Part shown: in pieces, positions 48,234 to 61,134 of the stretch
How positions within the stretch are numbered: position 1 is the first letter of the stretch
Layout of the letters: every line of letters starts with the position of its first letter
Assembly (NCBI RefSeq): GCF_013201825.1
Contig: NZ_CP053836.1
Location: forward strand, 1,860,001-1,924,000
Reading direction: 5' to 3'
Length of the DNA stretch: 64,000 bases
Source: Halarcobacter ebronensis
GTDB lineage: Bacteria; Campylobacterota; Campylobacteria; Campylobacterales; Arcobacteraceae
Translations under genes and position numbers: made by a program
The notes under the pieces: generated by a model
The model's input: the letters and a program-made list of their open reading frames with translations, nothing else
The model's database searches: none
What the model was told of the DNA's origin: nothing

Positions 48234-50585
48234 ATGAATTATTTAAAAGTATTAGGTTCTTCAGGAAGCAAAACCAAATTCTCAGGTACTACATCATTTC
48301 AAGTTTACAAAGATATTGTTATAGATGCAGGGAATATATTAAATGTTTTAGGTAATAATGCCTTAGATATAAACCATATTTTTCTAACTCATTCCCATGC
48401 TGATCATATCACTGATTTACCTTTTATTATTGATAACTTTTTTGAGCAAAGAAGAACTCCATTAAGAATCTATGCTTCAAAACAGACAATCAGTTCTTTG
48501 AAAAATCATACTTTTAACAATGAAGTTTGGCCAGATTTCTCAAAAATAAAACTTTTAGATTCAGAGGAATACTCTTTAATATTTATAGAAATCAATGTTG
48601 ATGAACCAATATATCTAGACCCTCTAAAAATAACTCCTATTGAAGCAAATCATATTAATGGTTCTTTTGGCTTTATGATTGAAAAGGAAAATAGCAATGG
48701 CTACATAATAAGTGGAGATACCCACAAAAATGCAAAAATTTGGGAATATATTAATAAAAATGAAAACATTACTGCCCTTTTAATAGAGTGTTCTTTCCCC
48801 TCAAATTTAGGGAAGCTAGCTAAAGACAGTAAACATTTAACTGCAAAATATTTGGCTGAAGATATAGAAGAGAATCTAAAAAGAGATGATTTACAAATCT
48901 TTATTTATCACCTAAAATCTTCACATTATGAAGAGATTAAACAAGAAATTATTGATAGAAAACTATTTAGAAATGGTGGAAAAATCTTAGAAGATGAAGA
49001 TGTTATCCATTTTGATTTAAGAGTAACAGAATCAAATATGATAAGCAAAGATAAGTTTGACAAAATCTTAGCAATAAACTTGGAGCTTTCAAGTGAGCTT
49101 GACAAAGATAAACTTTTTGAGATGATTTTAACTTTAACTAAAGAGCTTACTCACTGTGAAGGTGGAACTTTATATATAGTCTCAAAAGATAAAAAATATT
49201 TAGATTTCAAAGTTGTCCAAAATACTCCTTTAAATATCAATATGGGAGGAACAAAAGACAATATAACCTGGAACTCTTTGCCTCTATATTTGGAAGATGG
49301 AAGTGAAAACAAACAGATGGTTGCAGTTGTTTCTGCTTTAGAAAAAAGAATTATCAATATTTCAGATGTTTACAATGAAACTGCATATAATTTTGAAGGT
49401 ACAAAAAAGTTCGATAAATCAACAGGCTATCACTCTCAAACAATGCTTGTAATACCTCTAATCAACCATGAACAAGATGTTATAGGAGTTTTACAACTTA
49501 TAAACAAAACCAAAACAATTAATCATGTAATACCTTTTACAATAGATGATGAAAAGATAATTAAAGCTTTTTCCAGCCAAGCTGCCATGGCTTTAACAAA
49601 CAGCTTATTAATAAATAGTTTGGAAGAGTTTTTAAATGCCTTTGTGGAAACTATTGCCCATGCAATTGATGCAAAATCAACTCATACAAGAAACCATATA
49701 GGAAAAGTTGCAAAAATTGCAAGCTACTTAGCCCAAGCAATTGATAGTGATGAAACAATTTATAAAGATGTAAAATACTCATCAAATGAATTTAGACAAA
49801 TTGAACTAGCTGCATGGATGCATGATATTGGTAAAATATCTATGCCAGAATCAATAATCGATAAAGCTACTAAACTTCAATCTATGCTTGATAGAATAGA
49901 GATAATCAAAGAACGATTTGAAGTTATAAAAAGGGATTATGAAATAAGTTATCTAAAAAATGAAATTTCAAAAGATGAATATAAAAAAAGAGTTCAAGAG
50001 TTAGAAGAGAATGAAATTTTTGTTGAAAAAGTAAATATTGGTGGAGAGTTTATGAGAGATGAAGACCTAGAGAGAATAAAAGAGGTTTCAAAACTTACAT
50101 ATAAAAGAGATAAAGAGACAATTCCACTTCTTAATGAAGATGAAGTTGCAAACCTATCAATTAGAAAAGGAACTCTAACAGAAGAAGAGAAAGATATAAT
50201 GAATAGTCATGCTCAACTTACCCTTGATATGTTATCAGCACTTCCTTTTCCCAAAAAGTACAATAGAGTTCTAAATATTGCATCAAACCACCATGAAAAA
50301 CTAAATGGAAAAGGATACCCAAGAGGTTTAGATGAAAAAGTTCTAACATTAGAAGACAAAATTATGATACTTGCAGATATTTTTGAAGCCTTAACAGCAA
50401 GTGACAGACCATATAAAGAGGGGAAAAAACTCTCTGAGGTCTTTAAAATTCTCTCATTTATGGTAAAAGATAAAGAGATAGATGGAGAACTTTTGAAATT
50501 TTTCCATGAACATGAAGTATTAAAAAAATATTCGGATGAAGAGTTAAAAGAGTTTCAAAAAGATAAGAGCGAAGTAACTATTTAA
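48234..50585 (+). CDS. MBL-fold/GAF/HD-GYP multidomain phosphodiesterase
   Basis: A 783-residue protein with three domains. Residues 1-265: metallo-beta-lactamase fold with the zinc motif HSHADHITDLPF, like class II cyclic-nucleotide phosphodiesterases. About 285-460: GAF sensor with ALTNSLLINSLEEF at its end. About 470-780: HD-GYP with HDIGKISMPESI and HHEKLNGKGYPRGL intact, so c-di-GMP hydrolysis is expected; an extra helical insertion separates the parts. The stop overlaps the cyclase gene start (TAATG). Together they may control both cAMP and c-di-GMP. Confidence 0.85.
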   Translation: MNYLKVLGSSGSKTKFSGTTSFQVYKDIVIDAGNILNVLGNNALDINHIFLTHSHADHITDLPFIIDNFFEQRRTPLRIYASKQTISSLKNHTFNNEVWPDFSKIKLLDSEEYSLIFIEINVDEPIYLDPLKITPIEANHINGSFGFMIEKENSNGYIISGDTHKNAKIWEYINKNENITALLIECSFPSNLGKLAKDSKHLTAKYLAEDIEENLKRDDLQIFIYHLKSSHYEEIKQEIIDRKLFRNGGKILEDEDVIHFDLRVTESNMISKDKFDKILAINLELSSELDKDKLFEMILTLTKELTHCEGGTLYIVSKDKKYLDFKVVQNTPLNINMGGTKDNITWNSLPLYLEDGSENKQMVAVVSALEKRIINISDVYNETAYNFEGTKKFDKSTGYHSQTMLVIPLINHEQDVIGVLQLINKTKTINHVIPFTIDDEKIIKAFSSQAAMALTNSLLINSLEEFLNAFVETIAHAIDAKSTHTRNHIGKVAKIASYLAQAIDSDETIYKDVKYSSNEFRQIELAAWMHDIGKISMPESIIDKATKLQSMLDRIEIIKERFEVIKRDYEISYLKNEISKDEYKKRVQELEENEIFVEKVNIGGEFMRDEDLERIKEVSKLTYKRDKETIPLLNEDEVANLSIRKGTLTEEEKDIMNSHAQLTLDMLSALPFPKKYNRVLNIASNHHEKLNGKGYPRGLDEKVLTLEDKIMILADIFEALTASDRPYKEGKKLSEVFKILSFMVKDKEIDGELLKFFHEHEVLKKYSDEELKEFQKDKSEVTI

Positions 50586-52756
50586 TGAATAAAAAGCTAA
50601 TCAAAAAAATTTTACTATTTCTATTTTTAGGTATTTTATTAGCAACTACCCTTACTTCTATATATATAAATTTTGATAAATTACCTAACTCTTTAGATAA
50701 TAGACTAAGAGATTACTTTTTTACTATTAGAGGAAGCATTAAAGATAATGGAAGTGTAGTTATAATAGATGTTGATGAAGCTTCCCTAGCTGAAGTTGGT
50801 CAATGGCCTTGGTCAAGACCAAAAGTATCTGAACTTTTAGAAAAATTAACCCAAGCAAATACAGCAATTATTGCCTTTGATATGGTTTTTGCAGAACCTG
50901 ATAAAAGTTCTCCCCATAGAGTATTTAAAAAATATAATATCAATGTTCCAAATCCTCCAAACTATGACAAAATTTTAGGGGAAACTGTCTCAAATACTCC
51001 AACAATCTTAGGTTATGTATTTGAGTTTAACAAAGATGAATACACAAATAAAAAAGCTCCAACTATTCCTGCAATTTTTATTGAAAAAAATAAACATTTA
51101 GGAGATGATTATCTTTTAAAAGCCCAAGGCACGATACTAAATGTTCCTGAAATACAAGATTTAGCTTATAGTAGTGGTTTTTTTAATAACATCCCTGATG
51201 AATCTGGAATAATTAGAAGTGTTCCTTTACTAATCTCTTATAATAATCTTATCTATCCCTCTTTGGCACTTGAAATTATGCGTGTAATTACTCAAACACA
51301 AAGAGTTATAATCAATTATGATGAGTTTGGAGTTGAAAGTATTAAACTAAATAATATAACAATTCCAACAGATAGATATGGAAGATTGTTACTTAATTTT
51401 AGAGGTGGAGAAAAAACCTTTAAATACTACTCAGCAAAAGATGTATTAAATGGAAAGATTAGCAAAAAAGAGTTAGAAGGAAAAATTGCAATAATAGGAA
51501 CCTCTGCAGCTGGACTTTTAGATTTAAGAGCAACTCCTTTTGATTCAGTATATCCAGGAGTTGAAGTTCATGCAAATGTTATTGATAATATTCTTGAAGG
51601 AGATTTTTTATCAAAACCTTCTTGGGTTGATGGTGTAAATATTTGGTTGATTTTCCTTTTATCTATAGTTACTGTTCTATTTATAACTTTTACTCCATTT
51701 TGGTTAAATCCTATAATAAGTTTAACTCTTCTTGGAGGAACACTTTTTGGCTTGTATCAAGCAATGTTCAAGTATGGACTTATACTAAATATTTTTTTCC
51801 CAGTAATAACTATTGTATTGGGAACGATTCTTGTAACGTTAGTTGATTATTTTTATGAGATAAAAAAAGAGGAAGCTATTAAGAAAAAGTTTGCTTCAAA
51901 AGTATCAAAATCTGTTATGGATAACTTACTAAAAAATATTGATAGTAATGAGTTTCAAGCAATGGAAAAAGAGGTTACTATCTTTTTTAGTGATGTAAGA
52001 GGTTTTACAAATATTTCTGAACAAATGGGAAATGCAAAAGAGTTAATCCAATACCTAAATGAGTATATGGAACCAATGAGTAATATTATTACAAAATATG
52101 AAGGGACTATTGATAAATATATTGGTGATGCTATTATGGCATATTGGAATGCTCCAGCAAATGTGGTAAACCATCAAGACAAAGCTGTACAAGCAGCACT
52201 TGCTCAGCTAAGAGAACTTGAAACTCTAAATAAAAAATTAAGTGAAGCTAATCTTCCTTTGATTGATATAGGTATTGGTATAAATACAGGGCTTGCAATA
52301 GTTGGGGAGATGGGAAGTATTGGAAGAAGTGATTATACAGTTATAGGAGATCCTATAAATCTTGGTTCAAGACTTGAATCTTTGTGTAAATATTATAACT
52401 CTAGACTTAATATTTCAAACTATACAAAAGAGAAGTTAAAAGATGAATATATTTTTAGATTTTTAGACTTAGTTACAGTAAAAGGGAAAAAAGAACCTGT
52501 AGAGATTTGGCAAGTACTAGAGCAAGGCAAACCAAATAAAGAGTTAAAAGAAGAGCTTGATTGTTATCAAAATGCAATTGATTTATATAAAAATTCAAAA
52601 TTTAGTGAAGCTTTAAAACTTTTTAGAGAGTTAGAAGAGAATGAAAATAAAACAAATAAAAATATTTATAATATATATATTAATAGATGTGAAGAGTATA
52701 TAAAAACTCCCCCAGAAAATTTTAACGGAGTTTATAAGCACAAAATTAAGGGATAA
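50585..52756 (+). CDS. CHASE2-domain adenylate cyclase
   Basis: A 723-residue membrane cyclase. One N-terminal helix (LLFLFLGILLATTLTSIYI), a periplasmic CHASE2 domain to about 345 (VVIIDVDEASLAEVGQWPWS, FDMVFAEPDK, VIGTSAAGLLDLRATP), three helices around 355-425, then a class III cyclase domain with metal-site FFSDVRGFTNISEQ, DKYIGDAIMAYW and TVIGDPINLGSRLE. It ends in a TPR-like tail. Translationally coupled to the MBL-HD-GYP gene and followed 27 nt later by a FecR gene, a frequent neighbour of CHASE2 cyclases. Confidence 0.88.
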   Translation: MNKKLIKKILLFLFLGILLATTLTSIYINFDKLPNSLDNRLRDYFFTIRGSIKDNGSVVIIDVDEASLAEVGQWPWSRPKVSELLEKLTQANTAIIAFDMVFAEPDKSSPHRVFKKYNINVPNPPNYDKILGETVSNTPTILGYVFEFNKDEYTNKKAPTIPAIFIEKNKHLGDDYLLKAQGTILNVPEIQDLAYSSGFFNNIPDESGIIRSVPLLISYNNLIYPSLALEIMRVITQTQRVIINYDEFGVESIKLNNITIPTDRYGRLLLNFRGGEKTFKYYSAKDVLNGKISKKELEGKIAIIGTSAAGLLDLRATPFDSVYPGVEVHANVIDNILEGDFLSKPSWVDGVNIWLIFLLSIVTVLFITFTPFWLNPIISLTLLGGTLFGLYQAMFKYGLILNIFFPVITIVLGTILVTLVDYFYEIKKEEAIKKKFASKVSKSVMDNLLKNIDSNEFQAMEKEVTIFFSDVRGFTNISEQMGNAKELIQYLNEYMEPMSNIITKYEGTIDKYIGDAIMAYWNAPANVVNHQDKAVQAALAQLRELETLNKKLSEANLPLIDIGIGINTGLAIVGEMGSIGRSDYTVIGDPINLGSRLESLCKYYNSRLNISNYTKEKLKDEYIFRFLDLVTVKGKKEPVEIWQVLEQGKPNKELKEELDCYQNAIDLYKNSKFSEALKLFRELEENENKTNKNIYNIYINRCEEYIKTPPENFNGVYKHKIKG

Positions 52757-52782
52757 AAAATTAATAAAAAGAGGAAGAGAAC

Positions 52783-54333
52783 ATGAAAAAGATACTGCTA
52801 CTTTTAACAGTATGTTTTCTAACAACACTGTTTGGTTCAATAGGCTCTATATCAACAATAGAGGGAAAAGTAGAGATACAAAGACAAAATAGTCTTATTC
52901 AAGCACAAGTTAATAGTGAAATAGAGAGATATGACATTATTACTACTGGCAAAGACTCTATTGCTAGAATAGTTTTAAATGATAATACTTTAATTACTAT
53001 TGGTAAAGAATCTGCACTTAATATTGAAGAGTATGTTTTTGATGAGAAAGATTCATCTAAAAATGAAACTAATTTCAATTTTTTTAAAGGTGCTTTTAAA
53101 TCTGTTACTGGAAAAATTGGGAAAATCAATCCTTCTAAATTCAAACTAAAAACTAAAAGTGCCACTATAGGTATTAGAGGTACAACAATTATTGGAAACC
53201 AAGAGAGAATTATTGTTTTAGAGGGTTCTGTTTTAGTAACATCTCAAAACAAAAGTGTAATTGTTAATTCTGGGCAATATACTAATACTTTACCAAATCA
53301 AGCTCCAAGTGATGCACAAGACTATAATCAAGATCAAGAACAACCAATAAGTGAACAATTAGGAGAAGAGGAAAAAGAAGCAGAAGCAACTCTTCCTCAA
53401 ACAGAAGGTGCAACTGATAATCCTTCAACTTCTAATGCCTCTTCTGTAGCTAATGATGTTCAAAATGATGCTCAAGATATAGCTAATACTCCTGCAGCAT
53501 TTGATAGTGAAAGAGTTTATCCAACTAAATGGAACAAACCTTCTCAAGCAAGTGAGGATATATCTGGATTAAATCAATTAGAAGGATATAGTACTTCATA
53601 TTCAGAAGGAACTTATTCAGCAACAGAAGATAACATTATAAGAGTATTTCTTGATAGTAGTCAAATTTTTGCACAAATAGGTAGTTATGAGTTAGGTACT
53701 AAAACTGAACCTGATAGTTACTACTATATAAATAGTGACTACTTTGGAGGAATTAATGAAGATAGAATTTGGATGCAAGCAATTCCTGATGTACTAAATA
53801 CAGATGGAACTTATAGCGTAAACAATGATAATCATATTTCTTGGGGTTATTGGGGAAATAGCGCAGATATAAAAGGAACATGGGTTGCTGGAAATCTTAT
53901 AACTATTAATAATTATGACACGAGTATAAATGTAAATTATTCAGGACATATGATTGGATATACAAAAGCGATAGGAGATCCTACTTTAAATACTATTTTA
54001 TATGATAATAATAACTCATTTAATATGAATCTTAACCTTGGAGCTGGGACGAATGGTCAAGTCACAGGAACTTTCTCTTTTAATACTTCGAATAATGAAA
54101 GTTGGTCTGGAAGCTTTAACTCTACAACAAACGTTTCATCAGATAGGTTTTCAGCAACCATATCTACTCTTGATAAATCACCAGGAGTACTAGATTCTCA
54201 AAGTATTAGCAATTTAAATGGTAAATTTTATGGAACAGGGAATAATACAGTTCCTACAAGTGTTGGAGGAAACTTTAGTATTAATACAACTACAAATCAA
54301 GCCTTTGGTTCATTTATAGGAGATAGACAATAA
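52783..54333 (+). CDS. FecR-domain protein with TbpB-like C-terminal barrel, copy 1
   Basis: A 516-residue exported protein. Signal peptide LLLLTVCFLTTLFG (no good lipobox), FecR domain at about 25-165 with TKSATIGIRGTTIIG, an acidic linker (EQPISEQLGEEEKE) to about 230, then a glycine/asparagine-rich beta region to the end. Its close, KFYGTGNN...SVGGNFSINTTTNQAFGSFIGDRQ split here by an ellipsis, has the GxFYG/GGxF/GxFxGxR pattern of TbpB-like barrels, the export signal of Slam (T11SS) cargo. The next gene overlaps its stop and is Slam-like. Shares 572 bp with the gene at 55794. Confidence 0.75.
   Translation: MKKILLLLTVCFLTTLFGSIGSISTIEGKVEIQRQNSLIQAQVNSEIERYDIITTGKDSIARIVLNDNTLITIGKESALNIEEYVFDEKDSSKNETNFNFFKGAFKSVTGKIGKINPSKFKLKTKSATIGIRGTTIIGNQERIIVLEGSVLVTSQNKSVIVNSGQYTNTLPNQAPSDAQDYNQDQEQPISEQLGEEEKEAEATLPQTEGATDNPSTSNASSVANDVQNDAQDIANTPAAFDSERVYPTKWNKPSQASEDISGLNQLEGYSTSYSEGTYSATEDNIIRVFLDSSQIFAQIGSYELGTKTEPDSYYYINSDYFGGINEDRIWMQAIPDVLNTDGTYSVNNDNHISWGYWGNSADIKGTWVAGNLITINNYDTSINVNYSGHMIGYTKAIGDPTLNTILYDNNNSFNMNLNLGAGTNGQVTGTFSFNTSNNESWSGSFNSTTNVSSDRFSATISTLDKSPGVLDSQSISNLNGKFYGTGNNTVPTSVGGNFSINTTTNQAFGSFIGDRQ
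52810..53381 (+). repeat. 572-bp near-identical duplication, copy 1
   Basis: From GTATGTTTTCTAACAACACT in the signal-peptide region to GAAAAAGAAGC after the FecR domain. The same 572 bases lie at 55821-56392; by direct reading I find one mismatch (AGA for AAA at the Arg/Lys in KDSIA). Outside it the genes diverge sharply. Confidence 0.9.
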
Positions 54334-55640
54334 TGAAAAGAACAGTTTTAATAAGTAGTATAATAATCTCTACATTTTTAAATGCACAAGAGATAAAAAC
54401 ATCAACAGAGATTACAAAAGCCTTTGATTCAAAAAATTATGAAAAAGTTTATGAGACTTTAAATAAAAAAACAAAAACTGCAGTTTTAACATCAAATGAG
54501 TATTTTATTTTAGGTAGAAGTGCTTATGAACTTGGTAGATACAATGAAGCCATTTTAAACTACCAAATGATTTTACAAGAAGAACCAAGTAATAGAAGAG
54601 TCCAACTAGAAATTGCTCAATCTTATGAGAAACTAGGAAATCTTAGAGAGGCAAAAGAGATTTTTTTATCTGTTTTAGACACAAAAGTTCCTGCACAAGT
54701 AAAAGAGAATATTATCTTAAAACTCAATAGTATTGAGACAAGACTACAAAAAAGTGTACTTAAGTTAGAGACTCTTTTAAGCCTATCTTATGACTCAAAT
54801 GTGAAAAATCAGGCAGATAAAGGGAGCTACTCTTTATATATTCCTGCATTTGGAGATTTAAATATAACAGATAATACAGAAAAAGAGGGAGATACACTTT
54901 CTGAACTTGTAGGACTTTTAACTCATACTTATAGAGTTAATAATAAAATCGATATTCAAAATAAATTGACTGCTTATACTCAAAGATATTTTAGTCACTC
55001 TGAAAATAATATCAATCTACTCTCTTGGGCTATTGAACCAAGTTATCAATTAGATAAATCAAAACTTTCAGTTGAATTGTATAAAGATTTTATCCAAGTA
55101 GGAAATAGAAACTATCAAACAAATACTTATTTAAAACCAAAAGTAACTTATAATCTTTCACAAAATTCAAACTATATTGCTTCGTTTAAATTAAATAAAA
55201 AGAGTTATTTACAATCATCAAATAAAGATAGAGGCTCTTATGAATACACTTTTGCAAACACCTACTCAATCTATGATGAAACTTATGGGTTAAACTCTTT
55301 TACCCTTGAAGTTGGTCTTAGCGATAGAAGAAAAGGTACAAGAACAGATGTAAACAATAGCTTTTATACTTTAAGATATGTAAATAGATATCCTCTTGAA
55401 GAGGGATTAGTATTAAGTAATTATCTTGAATATAAAGATACTTCATATAAAGATACAGATGTAAACTTTAGAACTAAAAGAGAAGATAAAAACTATTTTT
55501 ATTCTATTGAACTTACTAAATCTTTGAAAAATAATATTTCAGTTGGTGGAAGTTGGCAATATATAAATAGAGAGTCAAACCATAAACCATTTGAATATGA
55601 TAAGATGATTACAAAACTCTTTTTATATTATCCTTTCTAA
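54333..55640 (+). CDS. TPR plus outer-membrane barrel protein, Slam/type XI secretion-like
   Basis: A 435-residue protein with a signal peptide (TVLISSIIISTFLNA), TPR repeats at about 25-140 (GRSAYELGRYNEAILNYQMI, EIAQSYEKLGNLREAKEIF), a KLETLLSLSYDSNVKN lead into a C-terminal region of alternating beta strands ending in Phe (LFLYYPF), the outer-membrane signature. This is the order in DUF560/Slam proteins, which move TbpB-like cargo to the surface. Start overlaps the FecR gene stop by a base, so cargo and transporter are coupled. Slam assignment is inference from domain order and neighbours. Confidence 0.7.
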   Translation: MKRTVLISSIIISTFLNAQEIKTSTEITKAFDSKNYEKVYETLNKKTKTAVLTSNEYFILGRSAYELGRYNEAILNYQMILQEEPSNRRVQLEIAQSYEKLGNLREAKEIFLSVLDTKVPAQVKENIILKLNSIETRLQKSVLKLETLLSLSYDSNVKNQADKGSYSLYIPAFGDLNITDNTEKEGDTLSELVGLLTHTYRVNNKIDIQNKLTAYTQRYFSHSENNINLLSWAIEPSYQLDKSKLSVELYKDFIQVGNRNYQTNTYLKPKVTYNLSQNSNYIASFKLNKKSYLQSSNKDRGSYEYTFANTYSIYDETYGLNSFTLEVGLSDRRKGTRTDVNNSFYTLRYVNRYPLEEGLVLSNYLEYKDTSYKDTDVNFRTKREDKNYFYSIELTKSLKNNISVGGSWQYINRESNHKPFEYDKMITKLFLYYPF

Positions 55641-55643
55641 AAA

Positions 55644-55683
55644 TATTATTCTTTACTAAATATTCAATTAGTAAAGAATAATA
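55644..55683 (+). terminator. hairpin after the Slam-like gene
   Basis: Stem TATTATTCTTTACTAA / TTAGTAAAGAATAATA, 16 bp with an 8-base loop, starting just after the stop codon. No long T run follows on the plus strand, so termination is likely but not ideal. The CTTTACTAA stem recurs in the hairpin at 57360. Confidence 0.55.
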
Positions 55684-55793
55684 ATCTTTCTAATAATAAT
55701 ATTAATTAATAAAAGTAACCATTTTTTAACTATTTATTTAGTAATATAAATAAAATATCAAAAATAATAATTTATTATTACAAAAGAGAAGAT

Positions 55794-57347
55794 ATGCAAA
55801 AAATTTTAATCCTCTTAGGTGTATGTTTTCTAACAACACTGTTTGGTTCAATAGGCTCTATATCAACAATAGAGGGAAAAGTAGAGATACAAAGACAAAA
55901 TAGTCTTATTCAAGCACAAGTTAATAGTGAAATAGAGAGATATGACATTATTACTACTGGCAAAGACTCTATTGCTAAAATAGTTTTAAATGATAATACT
56001 TTAATTACTATTGGTAAAGAATCTGCACTTAATATTGAAGAGTATGTTTTTGATGAGAAAGATTCATCTAAAAATGAAACTAATTTCAATTTTTTTAAAG
56101 GTGCTTTTAAATCTGTTACTGGAAAAATTGGGAAAATCAATCCTTCTAAATTCAAACTAAAAACTAAAAGTGCCACTATAGGTATTAGAGGTACAACAAT
56201 TATTGGAAACCAAGAGAGAATTATTGTTTTAGAGGGTTCTGTTTTAGTAACATCTCAAAACAAAAGTGTAATTGTTAATTCTGGGCAATATACTAATACT
56301 TTACCAAATCAAGCTCCAAGTGATGCACAAGACTATAATCAAGATCAAGAACAACCAATAAGTGAACAATTAGGAGAAGAGGAAAAAGAAGCTAGTGGAA
56401 CTGCCCCTAAGGTAGAACCTAATACATTAGATAAACCTAAAGAAGCTGATGATGTTGATAAAGAGAAGAAGGACGATGACACTAAAAATGATGCTCAAGA
56501 TATAAAAGATAAAATAGATTTATCTATATTAAATAACCAAAGAGTTTATCCAACCCAATACAATAAACCAGAAAACTCTAATAGTAGCCCTTCAGAAGAG
56601 TTTAATTTTGAAGGATACCATACCTATTTAGGACCTGAAGATTATTCTGGAACAATTGAGTTAAGTAATAGTAATAGTGTATATGAAGCCGTTAAAACAG
56701 AGCAACACCATCTTTTGCCAACTATTACAACCTATGATACAAACACCTATTATGTCAATAGTGACTATTTTGGTATGCAATCAGAAAAAGGTTGGTTTCA
56801 AGCTATTCCTGATGTACTAAATGCAGATGGCACTTATAGTACAAATAGTGATAATGAAGTCTCTTGGGGTTATTGGAATGATTTAGATGGGCTAAATCGT
56901 ACAATAAAAGGTACATGGGTTGCAGGAAATAGTATTAATCTTTCATCTCTTTCTGAATCAGGAGATATAAGCTTTTCAGGACATGCTATAGGATATACAA
57001 AGGCCATAGGAAATTCTACTCTAAATCCAATTTTATATAATAATAACAACTCTTTTAATATGAACCTTAATCTTGGAAGTGGAGCTTACACAGGAAATCT
57101 TAGCTTCAATACTGCAAATGGTGAAATTTGGTCAGCAAATTTTTCAGGTAATGATGCAAGTGGAGAGAGAAGTACATTTTATACTTCAAATGTTGGAGGA
57201 ACTGGCGCAGGTGGAACAATAAGTAGTGGTTCAGTATATGGTCATGCTTATGGTTCTAATGGAACAATAAAAAGTGTTGGAGGAAATTTCAACCTTAGCA
57301 CAGACTCAAACCAAGCTATTGGTTCTTTTATAGGAACTAGACAATAA
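55794..57347 (+). CDS. FecR-domain protein with TbpB-like C-terminal barrel, copy 2
   Basis: A 517-residue paralogue of the gene at 52783, with the same signal peptide region, FecR domain (TKSATIGIRGTTIIG) and acidic linker (with an extra charged DDVDKEKKDDDTKNDAQD part), but a diverged barrel region ending GSVYGHAYGSNGT and SVGGNFNLST...NQAIGSFIGTRQ. Shared blocks include YFG, IPDVLNADGTYS and GTWVAGN. It has its own upstream region and hairpin; probably a second cargo for the same exporter. Confidence 0.75.
   Translation: MQKILILLGVCFLTTLFGSIGSISTIEGKVEIQRQNSLIQAQVNSEIERYDIITTGKDSIAKIVLNDNTLITIGKESALNIEEYVFDEKDSSKNETNFNFFKGAFKSVTGKIGKINPSKFKLKTKSATIGIRGTTIIGNQERIIVLEGSVLVTSQNKSVIVNSGQYTNTLPNQAPSDAQDYNQDQEQPISEQLGEEEKEASGTAPKVEPNTLDKPKEADDVDKEKKDDDTKNDAQDIKDKIDLSILNNQRVYPTQYNKPENSNSSPSEEFNFEGYHTYLGPEDYSGTIELSNSNSVYEAVKTEQHHLLPTITTYDTNTYYVNSDYFGMQSEKGWFQAIPDVLNADGTYSTNSDNEVSWGYWNDLDGLNRTIKGTWVAGNSINLSSLSESGDISFSGHAIGYTKAIGNSTLNPILYNNNNSFNMNLNLGSGAYTGNLSFNTANGEIWSANFSGNDASGERSTFYTSNVGGTGAGGTISSGSVYGHAYGSNGTIKSVGGNFNLSTDSNQAIGSFIGTRQ
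55821..56392 (+). repeat. 572-bp near-identical duplication, copy 2
   Basis: Partner of 52810-53381, same length, one mismatch seen. The borders of identity are sharp on both sides, and the first ~9 codons of the two genes differ, which points to gene conversion or a recent partial duplication rather than slow divergence. Confidence 0.9.
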
Positions 57348-57355
57348 TAAAGATT

Positions 57356-57413
57356 TGTTCCTTTACTAAGTAGTATTTCGCTATCATTGGCAAAAACTTA
57401 GTAAAGAGAACAA
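57356..57413 (+). promoter_or_regulatory. leader hairpin before the ABC-F gene
   Basis: Stem GTTCCTTTACTAAGT / ACTTAGTAAAGAGAAC with an internal bulge and a loop of about 23 bases lies between the second FecR gene stop and the ABC-F start. Its 3' arm contains the AAAGAG that precedes the start codon, so it could hide the ribosome site or end upstream transcription. Leader hairpins are known before some ABC-F genes. Confidence 0.45.
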
Positions 57414-57420
57414 AGATTTC

Positions 57421-59874: not shown

Positions 59875-61134
59875 ATGGATTCAGAAGTTCAAAAAGTAGT
59901 AAAAGAGACTCTCTTAAACCTTCACAAAAAAGGTGTTTTGGCAACTCCAAATGAGTATAGAAAAGAGTTCTGTAAAGTTTCAAAAAAGTTTAATCTTTCA
60001 GTTGATGAGTGTGAATTATTTAAAGAATTAGTTGAGAAACTAAGTAAAGATGAACAACTCAATATTGATGAAAAAGAGATAAATAGCTTTGAAGATATTA
60101 TACCCATACTTCTAAACAGAGTTTCAAAAGATAATATAAATGCACTGGCTGAACTTTTTCAACAATCAATTAAACCCTCTATTAGTATAGATATAGATGA
60201 AGACTTAAAAAAGTTTTCAGTAAAAATAGGAAACTCTCCTGCTCTCATTTTTGAAGATGACATTCAAAAAGAGATGCAAGAGTTTATTATAAAAAGATTT
60301 GAAGCTGACAAAAAAGTTGTAAAACAAAAGACCTCAGAGATTGCAAAACTATTAACTCTTATGGGACAATATTTCAATGATGCAATAAAAAGCAGTGGAG
60401 ATGGTTCAAAAGAGGTATCAGATATCAAATCTCAAATCCAATCTATGGATATGGAATCACCAAGTATAAAAGCCTTAACAGAGTTACAATCAAAACTTAT
60501 AGATGCAGCAAAATCAATAGAAGAAGAGATGAACTCTGTAGAGAAAAAACTCTCAACAGGAAAATCAGAAGTTGAGTCTTTGGAACTACAAGTTAAAAAA
60601 CTTCAAGAAGAGCTTGAAAAGACAAGAGAAGAGAGTATAAGAGACCATTTAACAGGGGTTTTAACAAGAAAAGCCTATGAAGAATCTGTTAAAAAAATAG
60701 AGAATAACTTTATTCGCAATAATACCCAATATGCAGTTGTATTTTTTGATATAGATCACTTTAAAAAGATAAATGACACTTTTGGACATGATGCTGGAGA
60801 TGTTGTATTATCAACTTTTGGAAAAGTATTAGAAAAAAATACAAGAGAAGTGGATGTTGTAGGAAGATATGGTGGAGAAGAGTTTGTAGCTATAGTTCAC
60901 TTTAATCTAAAAAGAGAACTTCTTAAATACCTAAAAAGAATAAAAGCTATTATTCAAGAAAACAACTTTTTATATAAAAATAATAAAATTCACATTACCT
61001 TTTCAGCTGGTGTCTCTATTAGAAATAGTTACAATAGTTATGAAAGTACCCTCCAAAAAGCAGATATGCTTTTGTATCAAGCAAAAGAGGATGGAAGAAA
61101 TAAAATCATCTTAGAAGATGGAACAATAATTTAA
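59875..61134 (+). CDS. diguanylate cyclase (GGDEF)
   Basis: A 419-residue soluble protein. N-terminal ~240 residues are helical with a coiled coil (residues ~195-255, VEKKLSTGKSEVESLELQVK), then a GGDEF domain: DHLTGVLTRKAYEE, FFDIDHFKKINDTFGHDAGD and the active motif GGEEF. A likely RxxD inhibitory site is not clear (NTREVDVVGRYGGEE). Makes c-di-GMP. No membrane part. Confidence 0.9.
   Translation: MDSEVQKVVKETLLNLHKKGVLATPNEYRKEFCKVSKKFNLSVDECELFKELVEKLSKDEQLNIDEKEINSFEDIIPILLNRVSKDNINALAELFQQSIKPSISIDIDEDLKKFSVKIGNSPALIFEDDIQKEMQEFIIKRFEADKKVVKQKTSEIAKLLTLMGQYFNDAIKSSGDGSKEVSDIKSQIQSMDMESPSIKALTELQSKLIDAAKSIEEEMNSVEKKLSTGKSEVESLELQVKKLQEELEKTREESIRDHLTGVLTRKAYEESVKKIENNFIRNNTQYAVVFFDIDHFKKINDTFGHDAGDVVLSTFGKVLEKNTREVDVVGRYGGEEFVAIVHFNLKRELLKYLKRIKAIIQENNFLYKNNKIHITFSAGVSIRNSYNSYESTLQKADMLLYQAKEDGRNKIILEDGTII

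Follow-up and report, generated by a model that had tools for sequence, protein, structure and literature searches.

In the Halarcobacter ebronensis genome, a run of closely spaced genes appears to place a receptor-like protein on the cell surface through a dedicated outer-membrane exporter, while the other end of that protein would be kept inside the envelope next to a cAMP-making enzyme. If this reading is correct, a possibility that we rate at about 0.5, it would represent a new way to pass outside signals through two membranes. The window analysed is a stretch of 64,000 nucleotides (NCBI RefSeq assembly GCF_013201825.1, contig NZ_CP053836.1, positions 1,860,001 to 1,924,000 of the forward strand), and all coordinates given below are positions within it. 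The initial annotation, made from the sequence alone, had pointed to cyclic-nucleotide signalling genes overlapping or lying within 27 nt of a FecR/TbpB-barrel gene and a TPR-barrel gene, followed by a second cargo gene, and this observation is confirmed. Specifically, five open reading frames, all on the plus strand, occupy positions 48234-50585 (783 aa), 50585-52756 (723 aa), 52783-54333 (516 aa), 54333-55640 (435 aa) and 55794-57347 (517 aa), the joints between them being a 1-nt overlap, a 26-nt gap, a 1-nt overlap and a distance of 153 nt.

The first two genes of this operon-like run are cyclic-nucleotide signalling genes. In particular, the protein encoded at 48234-50585 combines an MBL class-II cAMP phosphodiesterase domain (PDEase_II, PF02112, 2.7e-13), a GAF domain (1.1e-10) and an HD-GYP domain (HD_5, 9.3e-34), each over the Pfam cut-off, and carries the HxHxDH motif of the phosphodiesterase (HSHADH, residues 53-58) and the HD/HHE-GxGYP motifs of HD-GYP proteins (HDIGK, 530-534; HHEKLNGKGYP, 686-696). 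The protein encoded at 50585-52756 is a CHASE2 adenylate cyclase, with matches to CHASE2 (1.1e-62, residues 26-362) and Guanylate_cyc (3.8e-22), and it is the only PF00211 match in the genome. Hydrophobic segments at residues 9-27, 351-369 and 399-417 would put its CHASE2 domain in the periplasm.

The third gene (52783-54333) encodes a FecR protein ending in a predicted TbpB-type lobe, referred to here as cargo 1. Its FecR match is over the Pfam cut-off (PF04773, 3.4e-13), and its FecR domain (residues 21-168; 52843-53286) is modelled with strands at a pLDDT of about 86-97 and matches the fold of the PupR cell-surface signalling domain (Z 15.3, 132 residues aligned, 2.6 A, model residues 48-196). 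The TbpB-type C-terminus, in contrast, does not show in single-sequence Pfam scans of the window proteins, and it appears with family profiles and in the predicted fold of cargo 1. A profile of 40 cargo proteins finds, among PDB sequences, TbpB at 4e-19, NHBA (GNA2132) at 2.8e-10, LbpB at 3e-7 and hemophilin at 1.6e-6; moreover, of 35 cargo proteins, 19 match TbpB_B_D at E<=0.5 (best 4.2e-11) and 35 match FecR. The lobe extends over residues 264-516 (53572-54330), with eight longer barrel strands at 383-515 and one further 3-residue strand at 403-405, and its fold matches the TbpB C-lobe 5kkx (Z 16.2, 205 aligned, 3.5 A), with NHBA at Z 14.0, HpuA at 12.8 and hemophilin at 12.1. Taken together, sequence profiles and predicted folds tie the lobe to known type XI cargo (TbpB, hemophilin, fHbp), although the AlphaFold model of cargo 1 has a pTM of 0.50 and a disordered linker. 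The second FecR-lobe gene (cargo 2, 55794-57347; FecR 1.9e-13, over the cut-off) has 196 of 200 residues identical to cargo 1 over residues 1-200 and 145 of 303 aligned residues identical after that; its lobe is assigned on the basis of this similarity, as cargo 2 was not folded on its own. At the DNA level, a block of 572 nt in the FecR-coding part (52810-53381) is shared with 55821-56392 with a single mismatch (52967), that is 571 of 572 nt match, while the lobe of the second copy has diverged. No lipobox was found in 82 FecR proteins of the locus set L077-L156 (one of our two numbered sets of relative loci, the other being L037-L076), nor by eye in the window cargo proteins, so that the lipobox of a surface lipoprotein is absent here. 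A signal-peptidase motif count on the same proteins (13 of 82) used a poor pattern and is not relied upon.

The fourth gene (54333-55640) encodes a TPR protein with a predicted outer-membrane barrel, which resembles Slam-type exporters. Its model (mean pLDDT 93) shows a helical TPR domain at residues 23-138 (54399-54746), expected in the periplasm and matching TPR structures at about Z 15-16, followed by a barrel of 14 long strands at residues 141-434 (54753-55634), with two extra 7-residue strands at 164-180. A TPR domain of about 140 aa followed by 14 strands is the arrangement published for DUF560/T11SS proteins (PMC8406197), and the model conforms to it. However, the window's own protein matches TPR_Slam only at 8e-5, below Pfam's cut-off, and no SlipAM match was found in it or elsewhere in its genome. 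Relatives of the exporter do pass the SlipAM cut-off: among 38 aligned members of the family, 32 match TPR_Slam and 10 match SlipAM at E<=0.5, and of 21 SlipAM places over cut-off in 100 genomes, 14 coincide with exporter places, several of them over nearly the whole 288-position model, while 0 of 14 control genomes gave a match. The remaining 7 over-cut-off places lie outside the exporter hits, six of them in reading frames of about 300-340 aa. Among the 50 fold matches listed in each of two structure searches with the exporter model, CymA (Z 23.0), OmpG (21.7), FadL, PelB and BcsC appeared and no Slam structure did, which excludes nothing. Whether the protein exports its cargo was not assayed.

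The association of these genes goes beyond chance. In 100 genomes, the window's own included, exporter and CHASE2 coincide (41 of 44 exporter-positive genomes against 17 of 56 exporter-negative ones; Fisher p 5e-11, although related genomes are not independent). Exporter and FecR gene lie within 100 nt of each other in 34 of 39 exporter ORFs and in 60 of 80 FecR loci, and in every one of these close pairs (34 of 34 and 60 of 60) the two genes are on one strand, whereas cyclase and phosphodiesterase change place and direction, with 11 arrangements, counted by eye, among the 32 loci that hold each of the four genes once. The two locus sets share some genomes and include related species, so they are not independent, and most cargo loci came from a scan of which only the best 80 were kept. 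FecR genes also lie near CHASE2 genes in stretches where no exporter was found. Of 17 CHASE2 stretches, one per genome without an initial exporter hit, 10 hold a FecR gene; two of these ten turned out to have the exporter, leaving 8 of 15. In addition, the window's genome has a FecR gene overlapping a CHASE2-GGDEF gene. On the other hand, of 34 FecR loci longer than 16 kb, 11 hold neither cyclase nor phosphodiesterase, and the window's genome has such a FecR/exporter pair.

The initial annotation had read the cluster as a sensor whose FecR part stays in or passes the periplasm and whose barrel part is surface-exported by a Slam-like protein, under cAMP and c-di-GMP control, and this interpretation is partly supported. 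It had itself proposed that the idea would fall if the predicted cargo C-termini lacked an eight-stranded barrel or if the exporter were not a DUF560-type barrel; the domain calls withstand both conditions, as the cargo 1 model has the eight strands matching TbpB, NHBA and hemophilin and the exporter model has its 14 strands behind a TPR domain, and the gene set recurs in relatives. Three things limit the interpretation. First, the four-gene cluster was already described for Campylobacterota (mBio 2022; PMC9239204). Second, at least 12 FecR proteins beside the same exporter family have no lobe. Third, neither export nor signalling has been shown, and the nearest tested system, NsrA/CyaK of Sinorhizobium, suggests that the barrel itself can be the receptor.

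The best explanation of these findings is an outer-membrane-to-cyclase relay, a split counterpart of the NsrA/CyaK system, in which the FecR protein is both exporter cargo and periplasmic partner of CHASE2. In this view, the FecR protein enters the periplasm by Sec, as an N-terminal hydrophobic segment that reads as a signal sequence and the lack of a lipobox are directly seen. Its TbpB-type lobe would then be passed to the TPR-barrel protein and fold on the cell surface, a step inferred from homology and from published T11SS cargo, while the FecR domain would stay in the periplasm, touch the CHASE2 domain of the cyclase and set cAMP synthesis; these latter steps are likewise inferred, the analysis having shown only the FecR-CHASE2 gene neighbourhood. 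The FecR domain of cargo 1 was not co-folded with the CHASE2 domain or with the TPR domain. The MBL domain of the first gene would break down cAMP and its HD-GYP domain c-di-GMP, the motifs being seen and the activities inferred. Two cargo genes with almost identical FecR stems and different lobes would let one cyclase read two surface tips. Co-variation analysis over 20 loci, with all other domains controlled, gives some support, as barrel and lobe (r 0.21, p 0.004) and CHASE2 and FecR (r 0.20, p 0.018) co-vary while CHASE2 and lobe do not (r -0.22, p 0.997). However, CHASE2 also co-varies with the barrel (r 0.20, p 0.010), and the TPR domain does not clearly co-vary with the lobe (r 0.11, p 0.16) or with FecR (r 0.19, p 0.062).

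The lobe, moreover, is optional. With a profile seeded from the same family, it was detected in 85 of 111 FecR proteins of both locus sets. The 26 negatives comprise 12 short FecR proteins (227-305 aa, two near-identical) with an exporter beside them, one of which has only an exporter fragment at a contig end; 4 short ones without an exporter in the locus (L084, L102, L129, L156); those of L100, L065, L075 and L136, whose ends look lobe-like by eye; one split by a frame change (L144); one cut by a contig end (L042); one crossing a run of N; a bare 142-aa FecR (L073); a FecR-TPR fusion (L148); and the FecR-Ig protein of L039. Export of a lobe cannot, consequently, be the universal job of the cluster.

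A parallel in a single chain is found in Sinorhizobium, where FecR, TPRs and a barrel form one 1190-aa protein whose gene overlaps cyaK. This protein is very likely NsrA, a published outer-membrane receptor needed for CHASE2 cyclase signalling through CyaK/CyaD1/CyaD2 and Clr (PMC7529298, PMC13001267, PMC10463352), an identity inferred from size and barrel position. Both systems link FecR, TPRs and an outer-membrane barrel to a CHASE2 cyclase, but the Sinorhizobium protein is one chain instead of two and has no TbpB-type match. Homology of its barrel to the exporter described here was considered and set aside, since the comparison aligned only the TPR part (probability 29); no barrel homology was detected, which leaves common descent of the two barrels undecided, and we refer to a parallel and not to a relative. 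Whether an outside signal raises cAMP through the barrel protein of the present cluster was not measured. In one Ensifer cluster, the FecR and TPR proteins beside a CHASE2 cyclase are short (220 and 104 aa), with no lobe or barrel match, and a Shinella FecR protein compared with the cargo profile aligned only over the FecR part.

Two alternatives, both less likely and similarly ranked, survive. In the first, the TPR-barrel protein is a receptor and not an exporter, as proposed for NsrA, and the FecR-lobe protein stays wholly periplasmic, its lobe docking on the barrel or TPRs from inside and passing conformational change to CHASE2. The fused Sinorhizobium protein, the lobe-less FecR proteins beside the same barrel family and the co-variation of CHASE2 with the barrel speak for it, whereas the match of the lobe to TbpB, hemophilin and fHbp, named as surface or secreted T11SS cargo (PMC12282271, PMC8406197), and the Slam-type profile matches in the barrel family speak against it. 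In the second, the cluster operates plain T11SS secretion with regulation: the FecR domain is only an anchor holding an unlipidated cargo at the outer membrane, and the cyclase/phosphodiesterase pair sets expression or timing instead of receiving a signal from the cargo. In favour of this, the one PDB sequence match of the FecR profile (E<=1) is 5ix9, the cell-surface anchoring domain of an antifreeze protein (E 0.0016), which the model also matches (Foldseek E 0.026, rmsd 1.0 over 62 columns); furthermore, some cargo proteins are adhesin-sized, up to 2991 aa, no lipobox was found, and many FecR/exporter pairs have no cyclase nearby. Against it stand the FecR genes near CHASE2 genes where no exporter was found, including the one beside the CHASE2-GGDEF gene, and the fold match to the PupR signalling domain. 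That the genes are neighbours by chance or by general operon packing and act separately is very unlikely, as the FecR/exporter pairs without cyclase are outweighed by the co-occurrence, the 11 arrangements of the same four genes and their published clustering.

A more speculative and rather unlikely version, which is however not ruled out, is export-coupled signalling. That is, a T11SS-type translocon might thread a receptor tip to the surface but leave its FecR stem in the periplasm as a plug that reads whether the tip is folded or bound and passes this to a CHASE2 cyclase, with recombination keeping the stem of duplicate cargo genes identical while tips diversify, so that one cyclase reads interchangeable surface tips.

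With respect to what is already in print, the Campylobacterota cluster of PMC9239204 contains the same four genes, namely those for a CHASE2 cyclase, a cAMP phosphodiesterase, a FecR-domain outer membrane protein and a TPR protein, for which one pathway was proposed. The text examined, figures and supplements excluded, does not identify the TPR protein as a Slam-type barrel or the FecR protein as T11SS-type cargo, nor does it describe two cargo genes with shared stems. Literature searches combining FecR with T11SS or with "surface lipoprotein assembly modifier" returned no papers, and none linking the cluster to Slam/T11SS was found, although they covered openly licensed papers only and absence from print is not proven; other papers examined were PMC5498481, PMC9927233 and PMC9090332. 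Compared with type XI secretion (Slam/NilB/HrpB with TbpB, fHbp and hemophilin cargo), the present cluster shares the predicted exporter architecture, the C-terminal eight-strand barrel of the cargo and the position of the cargo gene beside a T11SS-type outer membrane protein, but the N-terminal cargo domain is a FecR signalling domain, there is no lipobox, and a cyclase and a phosphodiesterase are adjacent. Compared with FecR/PupR cell-surface signalling, the fold of the periplasmic signalling domain is shared, while no sigma factor or TonB receptor is present among the five genes, the FecI-FecR-FecA-like set of the genome, read by eye, lying elsewhere. As far as the papers examined go, the way signals cross the outer membrane to CHASE2 cyclases is known genetically for one receptor, NsrA. 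The cluster offers a split form in which receptor tip, translocon, periplasmic adaptor and cyclase are separate genes or domains, so each step can be removed and tested. If confirmed, the relay would also extend type XI secretion from nutrient capture and adhesion to second-messenger control, and into Campylobacterota; the main texts of two T11SS surveys (PMC12282271, PMC8406197) hold no mention of Campylobacter, Arcobacter, FecR or cyclase.

Other readings of the loci were considered and rejected. An apparent FecR-CHASE2 fusion ORF in one relative crosses a run of N and changes frame, and it was not used. Phase variation through repeats found no support: of three cargo genes split into two ORFs, two were scanned for tandem repeats and had none at the break, one of these breaks lying in a run of N, while the third (L144) was only read by eye, and locus L041 had no tandem repeat. 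Within the window, no known RNA element was found at gathering score, and the promoter scan (49 sites against 53.1 expected) and the terminator scan (5 against 2.8) were uninformative. A 16-pair hairpin follows the exporter gene on the plus strand at 55644-55683 (-15.8 kcal/mol, z -7.7, with 0 of 200 shuffles as stable) and is a possible transcript end before the second cargo gene; a further plus-strand hairpin after cargo 2, at 57354-57414, has the same CTTTACTAA/TTAGTAAAG core (-24.5 kcal/mol for 57345-57420, z -7.2).

The window lies in a 3.17-Mb single-contig genome, and the cluster consists of five ORFs standing head to tail on the + strand at positions 48234-57347. The first four ORFs touch or nearly touch each other (with a 1-nt overlap, a gap of 26 nt and a further 1-nt overlap, in this order), while the fifth follows after 153 nt. 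A 16-pair hairpin sits in this last gap and a second hairpin with the same core follows the fifth gene, so that the second FecR gene may be transcribed apart from the first four. Specifically, gene 1 joins a class-II cAMP phosphodiesterase, characterized by the metallo-beta-lactamase fold, to a GAF and an HD-GYP domain, and displays the expected metal-site motifs. Gene 2 encodes a CHASE2 adenylate cyclase, in which the CHASE2 domain is located between hydrophobic segments, and it holds the only PF00211 match in the genome; five cNMP-binding places were found. Genes 3 and 5 both begin with a hydrophobic segment and a FecR domain, whereas gene 4 has TPRs followed by a predicted barrel. In addition, a GGDEF diguanylate cyclase is encoded three genes downstream of the cluster, at 59875-61134 of the window.

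With regard to the cargo proteins, Pfam scans of the single sequences detect only FecR in genes 3 and 5, while family profiles see more. In particular, among 35 aligned relatives, window copies included, FecR matches 35, TbpB_B_D matches 19 at E<=0.5 (best 4.2e-11) and FHBP_C matches 3. Among PDB sequences, the profile of 40 cargo proteins finds both lobes of TbpB (4e-19), NHBA (2.8e-10), LbpB (3e-7) and hemophilin (1.6e-6), while the match to a 'lipoprotein' entry, corresponding to fHbp, is weak (0.032). The predicted fold of gene 3 shows a FecR domain at pLDDT about 86-97, a disordered linker and a C-terminal lobe with eight longer barrel strands at residues 383-515. Fold comparison puts this lobe next to TbpB (Z 16.2), NHBA (14.0), HpuA (12.8), hemophilin (12.1) and fHbp (11.7), and the FecR part next to the PupR cell-surface signalling domain (Z 15.3). 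The only PDB sequence match of the FecR profile is 5ix9, listed as an antifreeze protein (E 0.0016), and Foldseek places the model on the same entry, a 'cell surface anchoring domain' (rmsd 1.0 over 62 columns, E 0.026), which is the N-terminal part of a large ice-binding adhesin. No lipobox was found in 82 FecR proteins, so the protein is not a classical surface lipoprotein. A much larger protein of this kind was observed at locus L044 (7051-18915), where a 2991-aa FecR protein ending in the lobe motif stands between two exporter genes.

The AlphaFold model of the putative exporter is confident (pLDDT 93, pTM 0.76) and shows TPR helices at residues 23-138 and 14 long strands from 141 to 434, that is, the layout published for DUF560/T11SS proteins, with a TPR domain of about 140 aa and a 14-strand barrel (PMC8406197). 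TPR_Slam matches 32 of 38 family members and SlipAM 10 of 38 at E<=0.5. When 100 genomes were searched, 21 SlipAM places passed the cut-off, of which 14 coincide with places found by the exporter search; of the other 7, six are frames of about 300-340 aa and all match only the later part of the model. The window's own copy does not match SlipAM. Overall, the family is Slam-like, although the window copy alone would not prove it. None of 14 control genomes gave a match.

The genomic neighborhood of these genes was then considered. Out of 100 genomes, the window's own included, 44 have the exporter and 58 have CHASE2, while 41 have both (Fisher p 5e-11), with the caveat that relatives are not independent. 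The exporter lies within 100 nt of a FecR gene in 34 of 39 exporter ORFs and in 60 of the 80 FecR loci examined (7 have the exporter farther off and 13 have none), and in these close pairs the two genes are always on the same strand. In contrast, cyclase and phosphodiesterase change place and direction around the pair: 32 loci hold each of the four genes once, in 11 arrangements as counted by eye, and in two of these the exporter is not next to FecR. Of 34 FecR loci longer than 16 kb, 21 hold the cyclase, 21 the phosphodiesterase, 19 both and 11 neither. The window's genome itself contains a second exporter/FecR-lobe pair with no cyclase nearby (locus L037, 6331-9183), and similar pairs occur in several relatives.

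From the 17 genomes with CHASE2 but no exporter hit, one CHASE2 stretch each was re-read. Ten of these hold a FecR gene, in one case nearly 4 kb away; two of the ten have an exporter that the single-sequence search had missed, and several of the rest are cut by contig ends. Moreover, at another locus of the window's genome (L039, 6579-9496), a gene for a FecR plus Ig-like protein overlaps a CHASE2-GGDEF diguanylate cyclase gene, representing a FecR-CHASE2 pair with c-di-GMP output. We read FecR as the regular CHASE2 partner and the exporter/lobe as an addition. A FecI-FecR-FecA-like set is also present in the same genome (locus L038, 4243-8130), with sigma-like and TonB-receptor-like ORFs, identified by eye, around a PF04773 match.

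A simple export model is, however, insufficient to account for all of these loci. At least 12 FecR proteins of 227-305 aa beside this exporter family carry no lobe, one of them in the same genus (locus L041), and no separate lobe gene was found in their loci, L041 not being included in this last search. In these cases the barrel may act alone. A further variation was observed at locus L148 (272-1291), where FecR is fused to TPRs in one 339-aa ORF without a barrel.

A parallel is found in Sinorhizobium meliloti, in which the gene overlapping cyaK encodes FecR, TPRs and a C-terminal barrel (weak OMP_b-brl_3 match, 0.0067) in a single protein of 1190 aa. Its size and domain layout fit NsrA (barrel at 600-1200; PMC7529298), the outer-membrane receptor needed for CHASE2 cyclase signalling (PMC7529298, PMC13001267, PMC10463352), even though this identity is our inference. 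The barrels of the two systems are not detectably homologous. In Shinella, a TPR-barrel gene homologous to this exporter (99.3% probability over 384 columns) lies together with a CHASE2 cyclase and with a FecR protein showing FHBP_C and TbpB_B_D matches below their cut-offs (0.0021 and 0.019, respectively), of which the cargo profile aligned only the FecR part; the split form, therefore, seems not confined to Campylobacterota. In an Ensifer plasmid, on the other hand, the FecR and TPR genes beside a CHASE2 cyclase are short, without lobe or barrel match. Finally, the rhizobial FecR/CHASE2-cyclase clusters of loci L158 and L159 lie beside NHLP-type peptide exporters and a cyclic-nucleotide-binding protein.

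Co-variation was examined over 20 loci with all genes, a small sample, controlling for every other domain. Under these conditions barrel and lobe co-vary (r 0.21, p 0.004), FecR and CHASE2 co-vary (r 0.20, p 0.018), and CHASE2 and lobe do not (r -0.22). Barrel and FecR (r 0.25, p 0.0003) as well as FecR and lobe (r 0.23, p 0.011) co-vary, CHASE2 also co-varies with the barrel (r 0.20, p 0.010), and the TPR domain does not clearly co-vary with lobe (r 0.11, p 0.16) or FecR (r 0.19, p 0.062). The first three of these results fit a lobe handled by the barrel and a FecR domain read by CHASE2, while the last ones do not follow from it.

Taken as a whole, what the analysis demonstrates is the gene run, the domain homologies, the predicted folds, the conservation and the linkage, whereas export of the lobe, retention of FecR, its contact with CHASE2 and the effect on cAMP and c-di-GMP are inferred. 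The four-gene cluster has already been described (PMC9239204), while no report joining it to T11SS and to NsrA was found in the literature searched.

The two cargo genes of the window share an almost identical FecR stem. Specifically, 571 of 572 nt are identical between 52810-53381 and 55821-56392, after which identity drops to about 70-80% with many gaps; at the protein level, 196 of 200 residues are identical, against 145 of 303 in the remaining part. We infer that recent gene conversion or partial duplication has kept one FecR stem for two lobes. This pattern is not shown by L090, another locus with two cargo genes.
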